From: Taibaiella chishuiensis
GTDB taxonomy: Bacteria > Bacteroidota > Bacteroidia > Chitinophagales > Chitinophagaceae
DNA: 64,000 nt
Direction: 5' to 3'
NCBI RefSeq assembly: GCF_003014535.1
Contig: NZ_PYGD01000009.1
Location: 1 to 64,000, forward strand
Shown here piece by piece: positions 19,993-33,226 of this stretch; positions within the stretch are counted from its first letter, which is position 1, and the number at the start of each line of letters is the position of its first letter. Made by a program: the position numbers and the translations under genes. The notes under the pieces were generated by a model that did not search any database, was not told the DNA's origin, and saw only the letters and a program-made list of their open reading frames with translations.

Positions 19993-20925
19993 ATGAAAAC
20001 GGTCATCGCCTTGTTACTCCTGTTCCTCGGTGTCGAAGCGGCGCTTGCACAAAAGGCCGGGCCGGATTTCAATAGCCTGCCCGCAATAGACCTGTGGCCC
20101 GGTGCGGCGCCCGGAGGCCCCGGCCCTGCCGGCGCCAACAGGATGTCTGGAAAAGGTTCGCTCACCAACGTATCCCGGCCCCGGCTGCTGGTGCATGTGC
20201 CGGCAAAGCCCAATGGCACGGCTATTCTGGTGATCAGTGGCGGAGGTTATGCGCATATCGAACTGGGTAAAGAGAGTTATCCCGCGGCGCAATGGTTGCG
20301 GTCGATGGGCATTACGGCTTTTGAACTGGAATACCGTTTGCCCGGCGAAAACTGGGCAACCCGGGATGTGCCTTTCCAGGATGCGCAGCGGGCCATGCGG
20401 ATCATAAGGGGTAAGGCAGCCGTTTATGGTATCGACCCCGCTAAGATAGGCGTACTGGGCTTTTCGGCGGGCGGTCACCTGGCGGCTTATATCGCTTCGG
20501 CTTTTGCCCGCAACTTTTATCCACCGCAGGATGCATGGGATTCCTTATCGGCAAGGCCCGATTTTTGCGGATTGCTTTACCCGGTAATTTCCATGCTGCC
20601 GCCTAATAACAAAACGCATGCTTTCAAAAGTATTTTAGGCGCCGATCCGGCTATGGCTGCAGAGCGCGCCTACTCGGCGGAACTACAGGTAGGGCCGCAA
20701 ACCCCGCTTACTTTTATCGCACAGGCGGTCGACGATCCGGTGTCGCCGGTGGCAAACAGTACCCTGATGGCTGATGCCCTGAAGGCGCATCATATCCCCG
20801 TTGAACTGCACCTGTTCTCCTCCGGCGGACATGGTTGGGGTATGGGTAAGGCCGGGACCGAAACCGTAACATGGCCCGGCCTGTTTGCGGCCTGGATGAA
20901 AAATAATAAACTGGTCAGACCCTGA
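19993..20925 (+). CDS. Secreted alpha/beta-hydrolase esterase
   Basis: The protein has 310 residues and a signal peptide (MKTVIALLLLFLGVEAALAQ). LWPGAAPGGPGPAG near the mature N-terminus is typical of the acetyl-xylan-esterase-like (BD-FAE) hydrolases. The oxyanion motif is SGGGYAHIE, the nucleophile elbow GFSAGGH places Ser near 160, and the acid and base residues are in VDDPVSP and GGHGWGMG. It is probably periplasmic or secreted, releasing acyl groups from carbohydrate esters. No glycan-degradation genes are adjacent, so the substrate remains open. Confidence 0.85.
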   Translation: MKTVIALLLLFLGVEAALAQKAGPDFNSLPAIDLWPGAAPGGPGPAGANRMSGKGSLTNVSRPRLLVHVPAKPNGTAILVISGGGYAHIELGKESYPAAQWLRSMGITAFELEYRLPGENWATRDVPFQDAQRAMRIIRGKAAVYGIDPAKIGVLGFSAGGHLAAYIASAFARNFYPPQDAWDSLSARPDFCGLLYPVISMLPPNNKTHAFKSILGADPAMAAERAYSAELQVGPQTPLTFIAQAVDDPVSPVANSTLMADALKAHHIPVELHLFSSGGHGWGMGKAGTETVTWPGLFAAWMKNNKLVRP

Positions 20926-31170: not shown

Positions 31171-31887
31171 ACAGGATGCGCTAAAATCAGCGTTTTCGCG
31201 TATTTAGCTGTCCTCGCAGGGTCTCCTGCAAAGGGACCCTGTGGAAGGCAGGGAACAACACAGGTAAATAGCATCAAATGCATATAACGAGATAAACTGC
31301 CCCGTTCGCAACGTCCCTTACCGGAGCCGCCGCAGCGAAAATCGGCCGACCTGTTTGGTGACCCTCAGTGGCATAGCGGCGCAACGAGAAAATTAGGGAC
31401 AGGTTAAACGAATCGCTTTGTCAGGCCTAATAAGTTCCTTTGTCCTCTTTTCGCCTGAGCGGAATACCGGTATAAAAGCGATCCTTTCCGTGCGACGGCT
31501 ACTGCCAGGGTACAGGATGCGCTAAAATCAGCGTTTTCGCGTATTTAGCTGTCCTCGCAGGGTCTCCTGCAAAGGGACCCTGTGGAAGGCAGGGAACAAC
31601 ACAGGTAAATAGCATCAAATGCATATAACGATATAAACTGCCCCGTTCGCAGCGTCCCTTACCGGAGCCGCCGCGGCGAAAATCGGCCGACCTGTTTGGG
31701 GACCCACAGTGGCATAGCGGCGCAACGAGAAAAATAGGGACAGGTTAAACGAATCGCTTTGTCAGGCCTAATAAGGTCCTTTGTCCTCTTTTCGCCTGAG
31801 CGGAATACCGGTATAAAAGCGGTCCTTTCCGTGCGACGGCTACTGCCATAACACAGGATGCGCTAAAATCAGCGTTTTCGCGTATTT
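31171..31887. repeat. 341-bp tandem duplication plus partial third copy
   Basis: ACAGGATGCGCTAAAATCAG occurs at 31171, 31512 and 31853, exactly 341 bp apart. Units 1 and 2 differ at roughly ten positions (about 97 percent identical by eye). The third copy keeps about 35 bp (through TTTTCGCGTATTT) and then runs into the first peptide gene. Each full unit contains a hairpin CAGGGTC/GACCCTG. A diverged version of the last motif also precedes the second peptide gene near 32242-32266. Confidence 0.92.
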
Positions 31888-31933
31888 GTAGTCCTGTTTT
31901 TCGTGGTAATTTGGCAGTACTAAAACACTGATC

Positions 31934-32170
31934 ATGAAAAAGAAAACCGTTCAACTCAACAAAAAACTGGTATTCAGTAAGGAGAACATTGCGCACCTGA
32001 ATGTTTCGGAGCAGGAAAGCCTGGCCGGCGGCGCAGTTACAGGTACCCAGCCGTCCTGTATACTGGCCGCCTGTGGTAATGTTACCATCAATGCAACCTG
32101 TCCTTTGCAATGCCGATCGATTACCTGTGTAACCCGGAAACCGCTTACCCCGATCTGTTTGCCAGGTTAA
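31934..32170 (+). CDS. Lanthipeptide-type (RiPP) precursor peptide 1
   Basis: This 78-residue peptide has a charged leader (MKKKTVQLNKKLVFSKENIA, then HLNVSEQESLAGG) ending in Gly-Gly. The core of about 43 residues is rich in Thr/Ser and has six Cys (PSC, AAC, ATC, LQC, ITC, PIC). The K-x-L-x-F-x-K-x-x-I-A-x-L-N leader and GG site match the class I lanthipeptide and GG-leader precursor families common in Bacteroidota. Cys, Ser and Thr in the core suggest thioether rings after processing. It is 67 percent or more identical in the leader to the next gene. No LanB, LanC, protease or exporter gene is in the window, so maturation is inferred. Confidence 0.78.
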   Translation: MKKKTVQLNKKLVFSKENIAHLNVSEQESLAGGAVTGTQPSCILAACGNVTINATCPLQCRSITCVTRKPLTPICLPG

Positions 32171-32194
32171 GCCGCTTTCTTTAGCCCCGATTAA

Positions 32195-32225
32195 AAAAGC
32201 TTCCGGCATCATCCCGGAGGCTTTT
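32195..32225 (+). terminator. Terminator after precursor 1
   Basis: A 12-bp stem AAAAGCTTCCGG/CCGGAGGCTTTT with one G-T pair and a T-rich tail. It closely resembles the terminators at 32614 and 33361. Confidence 0.82.
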
Positions 32226-32312
32226 GCTTTTCTATATATCGAAAAATCAGTTTTTTCACGTATTTATGATGCTGCTTTTCATGGTAATTTAGTTGTATAA
32301 AACTCTTTTATT

Positions 32313-32588
32313 ATGAAAAAGAAAACCGTTCAACTCAACAAAAAGCTGATCTTCAGCAGGACAAACATTGCCAACCTGAACCCCGAAGAACAGGAAAGCC
32401 TGGCCGGTGGTGCGATTACGGGTACCCAGAATACTTGTGTTGCGGGGGCTTGTGCAACCGGCACCCAGAATACCTGTGTATTAACCGCCTGCCCGAGTTT
32501 ACCCGATGCAAACTGCTCTGTTTTGTGCCAGTCGGTGGTTTGTAGCATTACCAAACGTAAAGTTACGCCAGTCTGCCTACCATGCTAA
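32313..32588 (+). CDS. Lanthipeptide-type (RiPP) precursor peptide 2
   Basis: This 91-residue paralogue of the previous gene opens with the same MKKKTVQLNKKL and has the same EQESLAGG end of leader. The core has nine Cys. It contains an internal duplication, TGTQNTCVAGAC then TGTQNTCVLTAC, where peptide 1 has a single TGTQPSCILAAC; this accounts for the 13-codon length difference. Both peptides end in a TP(I/V)CLP motif. Upstream sequence is also homologous (CACGTATTT ... TCATGGTAATTT), so promoter and gene were duplicated together. Modification enzymes are absent from the window. Confidence 0.78.
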   Translation: MKKKTVQLNKKLIFSRTNIANLNPEEQESLAGGAITGTQNTCVAGACATGTQNTCVLTACPSLPDANCSVLCQSVVCSITKRKVTPVCLPC

Positions 32589-32613
32589 GCCCGGACCTGA
32601 ATCGCATAGTAAA

Positions 32614-32643
32614 AAAGCTTCCGGGATCATTCCCGGAAGCTTT
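32614..32643 (+). terminator. Terminator after precursor 2
   Basis: A perfect 13-bp stem AAAGCTTCCGGGA/TCCCGGAAGCTTT with loop TCAT, followed by GATTTTGG. Confidence 0.85.
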
Positions 32644-32821
32644 GATTTTGGTAATGTGGTCAAAATTAGTTGGTTTTTGGTGCAGTTACCAGTTGAAGAT
32701 CCGCGACTGGTTGTATAATACACGCACTTACGAACTATCCCTGGTAATATTGACAATAATGTTTCATTTTTGAATAGATAATTATCAGCATTTAATTGTT
32801 TACAAATCAAATCTATTTATC

Positions 32822-33226
32822 ATGAAATTTTTAAGAACGGTTTTTATCCTGGCCTGCCTGATGGGTACCGCCCAGGCGGTAATGGCGCAATATCCGCACA
32901 TAGCAAGAGAAAGAAGAGGCCTGGCAGCCCAGGTAACTTTTACTGTAAAAAATAGCGGCGGTACAGCATCCTCGTATACGTACAACTGGCTCGCTGCACC
33001 CGAAACCCGTATTTTTTACATAACCAGCCCCACCACCTTTGAAGTATCCGCGGTGGCGACAGGTGTCGGAACCATGAATTTCCTGGTCAGCAAATCCAGT
33101 GTGGATGCGGTTGCCGGTTCCTACTACCAAACGGCGCCATCCACAGGAGGACGCAAACTTTATATCAAGAATACCAACCCGTCGAGCCCCGGCACCAATA
33201 ACTATACTTTTTACCTGGACTATTAA
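32822..33226 (+). CDS. Small secreted protein next to the precursor peptides
   Basis: The 134-residue protein has a clear signal peptide (MKFLRTVFILACLMGTAQAV, cleavage near MAQ-YPH). The mature part of about 110 residues has no Cys and looks like a single beta-sandwich or fibre-like domain rich in Ser, Thr, Tyr and Asn (VTFTVKNSGG, TSPTTFEVSAV). I recognise no family. It follows the second precursor gene and ends in the same type of terminator, which suggests common history. Whether it helps the peptides is unknown. Confidence 0.65.
   Translation: MKFLRTVFILACLMGTAQAVMAQYPHIARERRGLAAQVTFTVKNSGGTASSYTYNWLAAPETRIFYITSPTTFEVSAVATGVGTMNFLVSKSSVDAVAGSYYQTAPSTGGRKLYIKNTNPSSPGTNNYTFYLDY

Follow-up and report, generated by a model that had tools for sequence, protein, structure and literature searches.

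What do two adjacent small genes with Gly-Gly leaders and Cys-rich cores make, and if their products are modified, where are the enzymes? The genes lie in the window, by which we mean the whole 64,000-nucleotide stretch of Taibaiella chishuiensis DNA analyzed here. A preliminary description had presented them as a pair with near-identical leaders and cores of six and nine Cys, and the open reading frames (ORFs) are as it described. The two leaders have the same residue at 27 of their 33 positions and both end in Gly-Gly, and the cores contain 9 Ser/Thr with 6 Cys (ORF1) and 13 Ser/Thr with 9 Cys (ORF2). The locus is laid out as follows.

31870..31933, + strand: region upstream of gene 1, resembling that of gene 2 (pairwise alignment); probable promoter
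31934..32170, + strand: precursor gene 1, 78 aa, with leader MKKKTVQL...LAGG and a core with 6 Cys (ORF and NF038153)
31934..32032, + strand: leader of gene 1 with its Gly-Gly end (NF038153 match, residues 1-33)
32195..32225, + strand: terminator-like hairpin 3' of gene 1 (pattern scan, 12 pairs)
32250..32312, + strand: region upstream of gene 2, resembling that of gene 1 (pairwise alignment)
32313..32588, + strand: precursor gene 2, 91 aa, with a core with 9 Cys (ORF and NF038153)
32313..32411, + strand: leader of gene 2 with its Gly-Gly end (NF038153 match, residues 1-33)
32418..32495, + strand: duplication within core 2, a 13-residue unit with the start TGTQNTCV, present twice (unit length by eye)
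32614..32643, + strand: terminator-like hairpin 3' of gene 2 (pattern scan, 13 pairs)

Core 1 has a single unit similar to the doubled TGTQNTCV unit of core 2. By pairwise alignment, about 50 nt 5' of each gene are common to both, and positions 31700-32900 contain six terminator-like sites (both strands) versus a shuffle mean of 1.4. The two genes are probably transcribed as separate units. A tandem duplication without a clear gene (window 31171-31546 and 31512-31887, period 341 bp, 96.8% alike) ends against gene 1, and its fragments weakly match other loci of the same genome. Directly 3' of the pair, 32822-33226 (+) encodes a 134-aa protein with a signal-peptide-like start, for which profile scans gave no significant family match.

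The class I lanthipeptide-type leader that had been proposed for the pair was borne out. Against NF038153 (lant_leader_L1a, the class I lanthipeptide leader model; cut-off, 22 bits), ORF1 scored 44.1 bits and ORF2 41.4 bits, about twice the cut-off. The TIGR04149-type model that had also been suggested did not fit, as ORF1 reached 14.2 bits against a cut-off of 25 and ORF2 had no match. Pfam returned nothing significant for either ORF, and the three Rfam matches at the pair were all far under their gathering scores, none of them credible. In agreement with the preliminary description, no LanB, LanC, radical SAM, C39, or ABC-transporter protein was found at an E value of ≤1e-5 among the 27 window proteins scanned, which are nearly all of the ORFs of at least 120 aa within about 20 kb of the pair. 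The scanned neighbors include a helicase, a pyruvate carboxylase, a thioredoxin-reductase-like protein, and Gld proteins; an alpha/beta hydrolase (19993-20925) gave a weak Peptidase_S9 match. The pyruvate carboxylase is 87 to 88% identical to those of T. koreensis, T. lutea, and the MAG UBA1312. Beyond it the stretch differs in these three genomes, and thus there is no empty site for comparison.

The pair had been called orphan, and this stands with respect to local enzymes but not with respect to the genome, in which the two genes are 2 of at least 63 such genes scattered throughout. In the T. chishuiensis genome (5.84 Mb, 24 contigs), NF038153 matched 80 places at an E value of ≤10, with 63 over the cut-off; none of 14 control genomes had a match over the cut-off. 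Grouped with a spacing of more than 10 kb between clusters, the 63 leaders form 37 clusters and occupy 16 contigs. Leaving out 3 of the 80 matches (<15 bits), we extracted 77 genes, 13 of which have a LanB, LanC, or LanT gene within 20 kb. The precursors have a lysine-rich start, a leader ending in GG (in a few, GA or AG), and then a variable core. One gene (C12:27792) is without a core and was excluded from core counts, leaving 76 cores, in which Cys makes up 12.0% of the residues. The 77 leaders contain a single Cys in 2,405 residues.

A search for modification enzymes elsewhere in the genome, the check that had been recommended, found LanB, LanC, and a C39 exporter-type protein. There are three LanB genes for 71 leaders (E ≤ 0.01): LanB1 (C1:1004541-1007648, 1,035 aa), LanB2 (C1:1017134-1020292, 1,052 aa), and a divergent LanB3 on contig C7 (939 aa). 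LanB2 matched the NisB structure 4wd9 with an E value of 1.2e-39, and in the alignment R83, R87, T89, R784, R786, E823, and R826 of NisB face identical residues. LanB1 has the same residues in these seven columns, as do the full-length LanBs of T. koreensis and of another genome of the genus, G001, and all of these proteins, LanB2 included, keep the histidine of an HxxxNR motif (Taibaiella alignment only). We take these seven residues and the histidine to be catalytic. LanB3 has Val at the T89 column. A contig scan with LanB2 as the query gave no confirmed relative. Adjoining LanB2 is a microviridin/marinostatin-type precursor (NF033738, 65.9 bits; cut-off, 26; L036:2514-4914, which is C1:1014514-1016914). 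At that locus, proteins of 345 aa and 334 aa are, as judged by eye, candidates for its ATP-grasp ligases.

The genome encodes six LanC-domain proteins in open frames of 403 to 464 aa, which are too short for LanM. Three of them (C2, C4, and C11) adjoin precursors without a LanB, and such LanA-LanC islands were likewise seen in T. koreensis and G001 (leader peptides by eye). Thus, if the precursors of these islands are modified, LanB reaches them in trans. The C39 protein (C1:1000439) has a 736-aa frame and scored 119.6 bits; a second, weaker match over the cut-off is at C1:520792 (29.2 bits). In T. koreensis and G001, the gene for a LanB (1,074 and 1,063 aa, respectively; 89% identical) precedes those for a C39 ABC protein (731 aa) and an HlyD protein (444 aa). 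Pfam, applied to the latter two proteins in T. koreensis only, found ABC domains in this counterpart of the T. chishuiensis C39 protein. These LanBs are 56 to 57% identical to LanB1 and about 39% identical to LanB2. For its 98 leaders, T. koreensis has only two LanBs, this full-length B1-type protein and a divergent one of 922 aa. The second LanB of G001 is split (726 and 302 aa; L228:7814-10915, G001 C33) and adjoins a LanC and a precursor.

We then compared the occurrence of leaders and enzymes across genomes. Leaders at an E value of ≤0.01 numbered 71 in T. chishuiensis, 60 in G001, 98 in T. koreensis (G101), and 0 in T. lutea (G147). In the same order, LanB places numbered 4, 2, 3, and 0 (two of those in T. 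chishuiensis, and two in T. koreensis, are stretches of one gene), and LanC numbered 6, 4, 4, and 0. Thus, three of the four genus genomes have leaders, LanB, and LanC alike, and T. lutea lacks all three. This species sits beside the outgroups in a tree of one gene (support, 0.795), so that a gain after its split and a loss in it look the same; the joint absence may be a single event. Among 147 genomes sampled from the larger family, 15 had a leader at an E value of ≤0.01, 21 had a LanB, and 12 had both (one-sided Fisher P = 8e-10, with relatedness ignored). The leader was found without a LanB match in G076, G140, and G141 (in two of these genomes, the leader match was weak), and nine family genomes had a LanB without a leader match. 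Outside the genus, every sampled genome had at most seven leader matches.

Class I lanthipeptides usually have the dehydrated residue on the N-terminal side of its partner Cys. We therefore determined whether each Cys of a core can be assigned its own preceding Ser/Thr, using the T. chishuiensis cores and the congener precursors read with a pattern on extracted stretches (65 of 98 in T. koreensis, after one duplicate start was removed, and 39 of 60 in G001). This signature was present in 72 of 76 T. chishuiensis, 60 of 65 T. koreensis, and 36 of 39 G001 cores. Full shuffles passed in 30.2, 21.9, and 13.1 cores, respectively, and reversed cores passed in 13, 13, and 5 (31 of 180 in all). With Cys fixed and the other residues shuffled, 112.8 of the 180 cores were expected to pass (standard deviation [SD], 5.5) and 168 did, although the 180 cores include orthologues and paralogues and, being mutually related, are not independent. 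The same test with the residue sets AG, PN, VIL, GP, and NQDE gave no excess, and for the AV and KR sets the rise fell just short of 2 SD. Thr and Ser taken singly, which are parts of the signature, each rose by about 3 SD. The frequency of Ser/Thr was 0.39 five residues before Cys and 0.12 to 0.30 at the other offsets from -8 to +8, and only 2 of the 76 T. chishuiensis cores have fewer Ser/Thr than Cys.

Orthologous cores carry the mark of purifying selection. Comparison of T. koreensis with G001 gave 26 reciprocal-best core pairs, for which dN/dS, when pooled, was 0.08 in cores and 0.13 in leaders, a rough ratio because the pairs were chosen by core similarity (identity, ≥0.55; coverage, ≥0.85) and because the core pS of 0.66 is near saturation. 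In these pairs, Cys is kept at 154 of 156 sites and Ser/Thr is kept as Ser/Thr at 206 of 216, whereas other residues are identical at 536 of 730.

These data bear on the best-surviving alternative, in which the scattered peptides are exported GG-leader, Cys-rich peptides with disulfides and LanB and LanC serve only adjacent precursors. The high Cys content of the cores is consistent with this alternative, as is the distance of most precursors from LanB, and the C39 protein would suffice for export. However, disulfides do not ask for Ser/Thr N-terminal to Cys, and the observed excess is specific both to Ser/Thr and to the N-terminal side of Cys; the signature thus counts against disulfides. The preferential keeping of Ser/Thr in orthologous cores and the joint absence of leaders and LanB/LanC in T. 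lutea argue in the same direction. We consider this alternative unlikely.

A second possibility is that the scattered genes, and with them the window pair, are unused remnants of duplication, silent or in decay. There are features of this kind: the T. chishuiensis gene without a core, some weak leader copies, and the 341-bp tandem duplication that abuts gene 1. Against it stand the low core dN/dS in the 26 congener pairs and the open core kept in 76 of 77 T. chishuiensis genes. No close core orthologue of the pair was found among the T. koreensis and G001 genes read, and so for these two genes the selection evidence is that of the common leader only. The pair's distant relatives (T. koreensis C10:1373359 and G001 C30:207620) resemble it in two parts, the leader and a stretch toward the C terminus that ends in (I/L/V)TPxC. 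Nevertheless, the pair has intact frames, 3' hairpins, and a conserved upstream stretch, and the differences between its two leaders are mostly synonymous (pS, 0.53; pN, 0.11). Decay is therefore improbable, more so than disulfides. Lastly, modification of the pair by another RiPP route, for example, by a radical SAM enzyme on TIGR04149-type leaders, is highly improbable, since the weak TIGR04149 similarity of ORF1 falls under the cut-off, ORF2 has none, and the NF038153 leader and LanB co-occur across the family.

The reading that we prefer, to which we give a probability of about 0.75, is that both genes encode precursors for a class I lanthipeptide system that is dispersed over the genome and has enzymes acting in trans. 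The two genes have a leader over the model cut-off and a Cys core with Ser/Thr N-terminal to Cys, and LanB and LanC are present in the genome. LanB and LanC in the same gene cluster, which is usual but not demanded by the model, were not found, and the nearest enzymes are on other contigs. More broadly, the Taibaiella precursors probably share a few modifying enzymes encoded elsewhere. In the proposed sequence of events, the conserved leader would be recognized in trans by a distant LanB (C1 at about 1.005 and 1.019 Mb, with the divergent third on C7), which would dehydrate Ser/Thr in the core. A LanC, from the C1 locus or one of the three LanA-LanC islands without LanB, would then join Cys to the dehydrated residues to form (methyl)lanthionine rings. 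Finally, the C39-type exporter (C1 at about 1.000 Mb) would cut after Gly-Gly and export the product. For the window pair, we infer the action of LanB, ring formation, export, and the choice of LanC, and the conversion of the two peptides to thioether peptides, as first proposed, is likewise a prediction from sequence. Taken together, these results support the original observation and enlarge its interpretation from two peptides to a genome-wide set.

A subset of the GG-peptide genes has a further feature in common. By pattern, a compact element lies 5' of 26 of 181 precursors (12 of 77 in T. chishuiensis, 8 of 65 in T. koreensis, and 6 of 39 in G001). It consists, in order, of GCY-GAA, a pyrimidine-rich tract, GGC(G/A), and then AAGACA with a purine-rich tract, and in 25 of 26 cases the pattern ends 15 to 35 nt 5' of the start codon. 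We aligned 24 of the 26 matches, leaving out one in T. chishuiensis (C1:1010345) and one in G001 (C27:110151). The aligned copies form two crossing helices, with 87.5% of cells paired versus 77.3% in shuffles. Cells changed on both sides numbered 46 versus 16.4 shuffled, a value reached in 0 of 500 shuffles, and such two-sided changes occur at all seven pairs of helix 2 and at two of five pairs of helix 1. The count of further pair types in the helices (20 versus 18.5) was not unusual.

A covariance model of this pseudoknot gave at least 38 matches at ≥23.9 bits in T. chishuiensis, G001, and T. koreensis; the best T. lutea match among the candidates scored had 16.1 bits. The search scored 150 candidates per genome, and one training copy that it missed was found later. 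Of the two copies left out of the alignment, that in T. chishuiensis was later matched by the model and that in G001 was not among the matches listed. A GG/GA-leader peptide gene lies within 60 nt 3' of 37 of the 38 matches (exception, G001 C28:291184), an association that is circular for the 23 matches in the training set; among the 15 others, 14 are followed by such a gene. Three of those 14 genes have non-LanA leaders: L262:1140-1559 (T. koreensis C23), L287:894-1200 (T. chishuiensis C3), and L290:640-985 (G001 C27). The L262 leader scored 20.7 bits against a class II model (cut-off, 32.95), and the L287 and L290 leaders were judged by eye. A common pseudoknot despite non-NF038153 leaders suggests one group of GG peptides across RiPP types.

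Copies in T. chishuiensis include L058:4429-4483, L043:5686-5730, and L081:3124-3180. At 11 copies in six loci of this genome, Rfam 15 gave no same-strand match at an E value of ≤10; on the opposite strand, two matches that overlap copies scored 22.2 and 14.5 bits, against gathering scores of 100 and 376, respectively. Our guess is that the pseudoknot controls expression in cis, in which case it would offer a way to study how GG-peptide genes are controlled at the RNA level. Upstream of the window pair, the covariance model did not find it (E ≤ 0.1). Another precursor subset was seen, by eye, to have a GGGGCAT..ATGCCCC hairpin about 40 to 60 nt 5' of the start, for example, upstream of C14:14701, C11:12006, C3:261482, and C7:165868 and of others in T. 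chishuiensis.

The type of chemistry that we infer is familiar; its genome organization and scale are unusual. Class I LanAs with GG leaders are known from Bacteroidetes, with an LxLxKx5L motif and C39 protease genes often in the cluster (PMC7268733), and the Taibaiella leader motif likewise ends in Gly-Gly. Unlike those mined LanAs, most Taibaiella precursors are far from any enzyme. According to the same source, that mining covered only the seven genes on each side of LanC and could not have reached scattered precursors. Enzyme-centered mining would in general miss most precursors in such genomes. The pinensins of Chitinophaga are lanthipeptides of the same family, Chitinophagaceae, and are likened here by description only; pinensin has been assigned to class I family I 17 (PMC7268733), and one pinensin gene cluster has been reported in six strains (PMC9248904). 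The class I lanthipeptides of Pedobacter lusitanus NL19 likewise come from a Bacteroidota species, and PMC12328550 describes PedA15.2 as a class I lanthipeptide whose leader was removed with a GG protease. In the literature searched, seen partly in excerpt and with the primary P. lusitanus papers outside it, we came across neither a description of a scattered set of class I precursors nor a paper joining Taibaiella and lanthipeptides.

The closest counterpart in organization is the prochlorosins and synechococsins of marine picocyanobacteria, in which ProcM has 29 substrates and SyncM has 79 putative ones in single strains (PMC10783134). As in the ProcA-ProcM and SyncA-SyncM systems so described, the Taibaiella precursors are numerous, have one type of leader in front of diverse cores, and are dispersed through the genome, for the most part at a distance from the enzyme; the 63 scattered leaders of T. 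chishuiensis have diverse cores and far fewer dehydratases than precursors. The set is not prochlorosin type in the strict sense, which involves a class II LanM synthetase, as the six LanC-domain frames are of LanC length. Whereas prochlorosins use one LanM for both steps and a Nif11 leader, Taibaiella has LanC-length proteins with a separate LanB and an NF038153 leader, and its LanC genes are themselves dispersed. We lean toward viewing Taibaiella as the class I, GG-leader counterpart of the prochlorosins, with 60 to about 100 scattered, species-diverse precursors under purifying selection where orthologues exist; a common LanB-C39 exporter-HlyD core acting in trans (in T. koreensis, one full-length B1-type and one divergent LanB) with a few LanC islands; and a subset of GG genes controlled by a non-Rfam 5' pseudoknot. 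If so, the roughly 200 evolved substrates of Taibaiella would make a natural library for studying the tolerance of class I dehydratases and cyclases, and T. lutea, which is without the system, would be a natural comparison for what the peptides do. Apparently, a one-machine-many-products arrangement has been built here with a different enzyme class than in cyanobacteria, and, if this is true, the strategy arose in a second lanthipeptide class and in another phylum.
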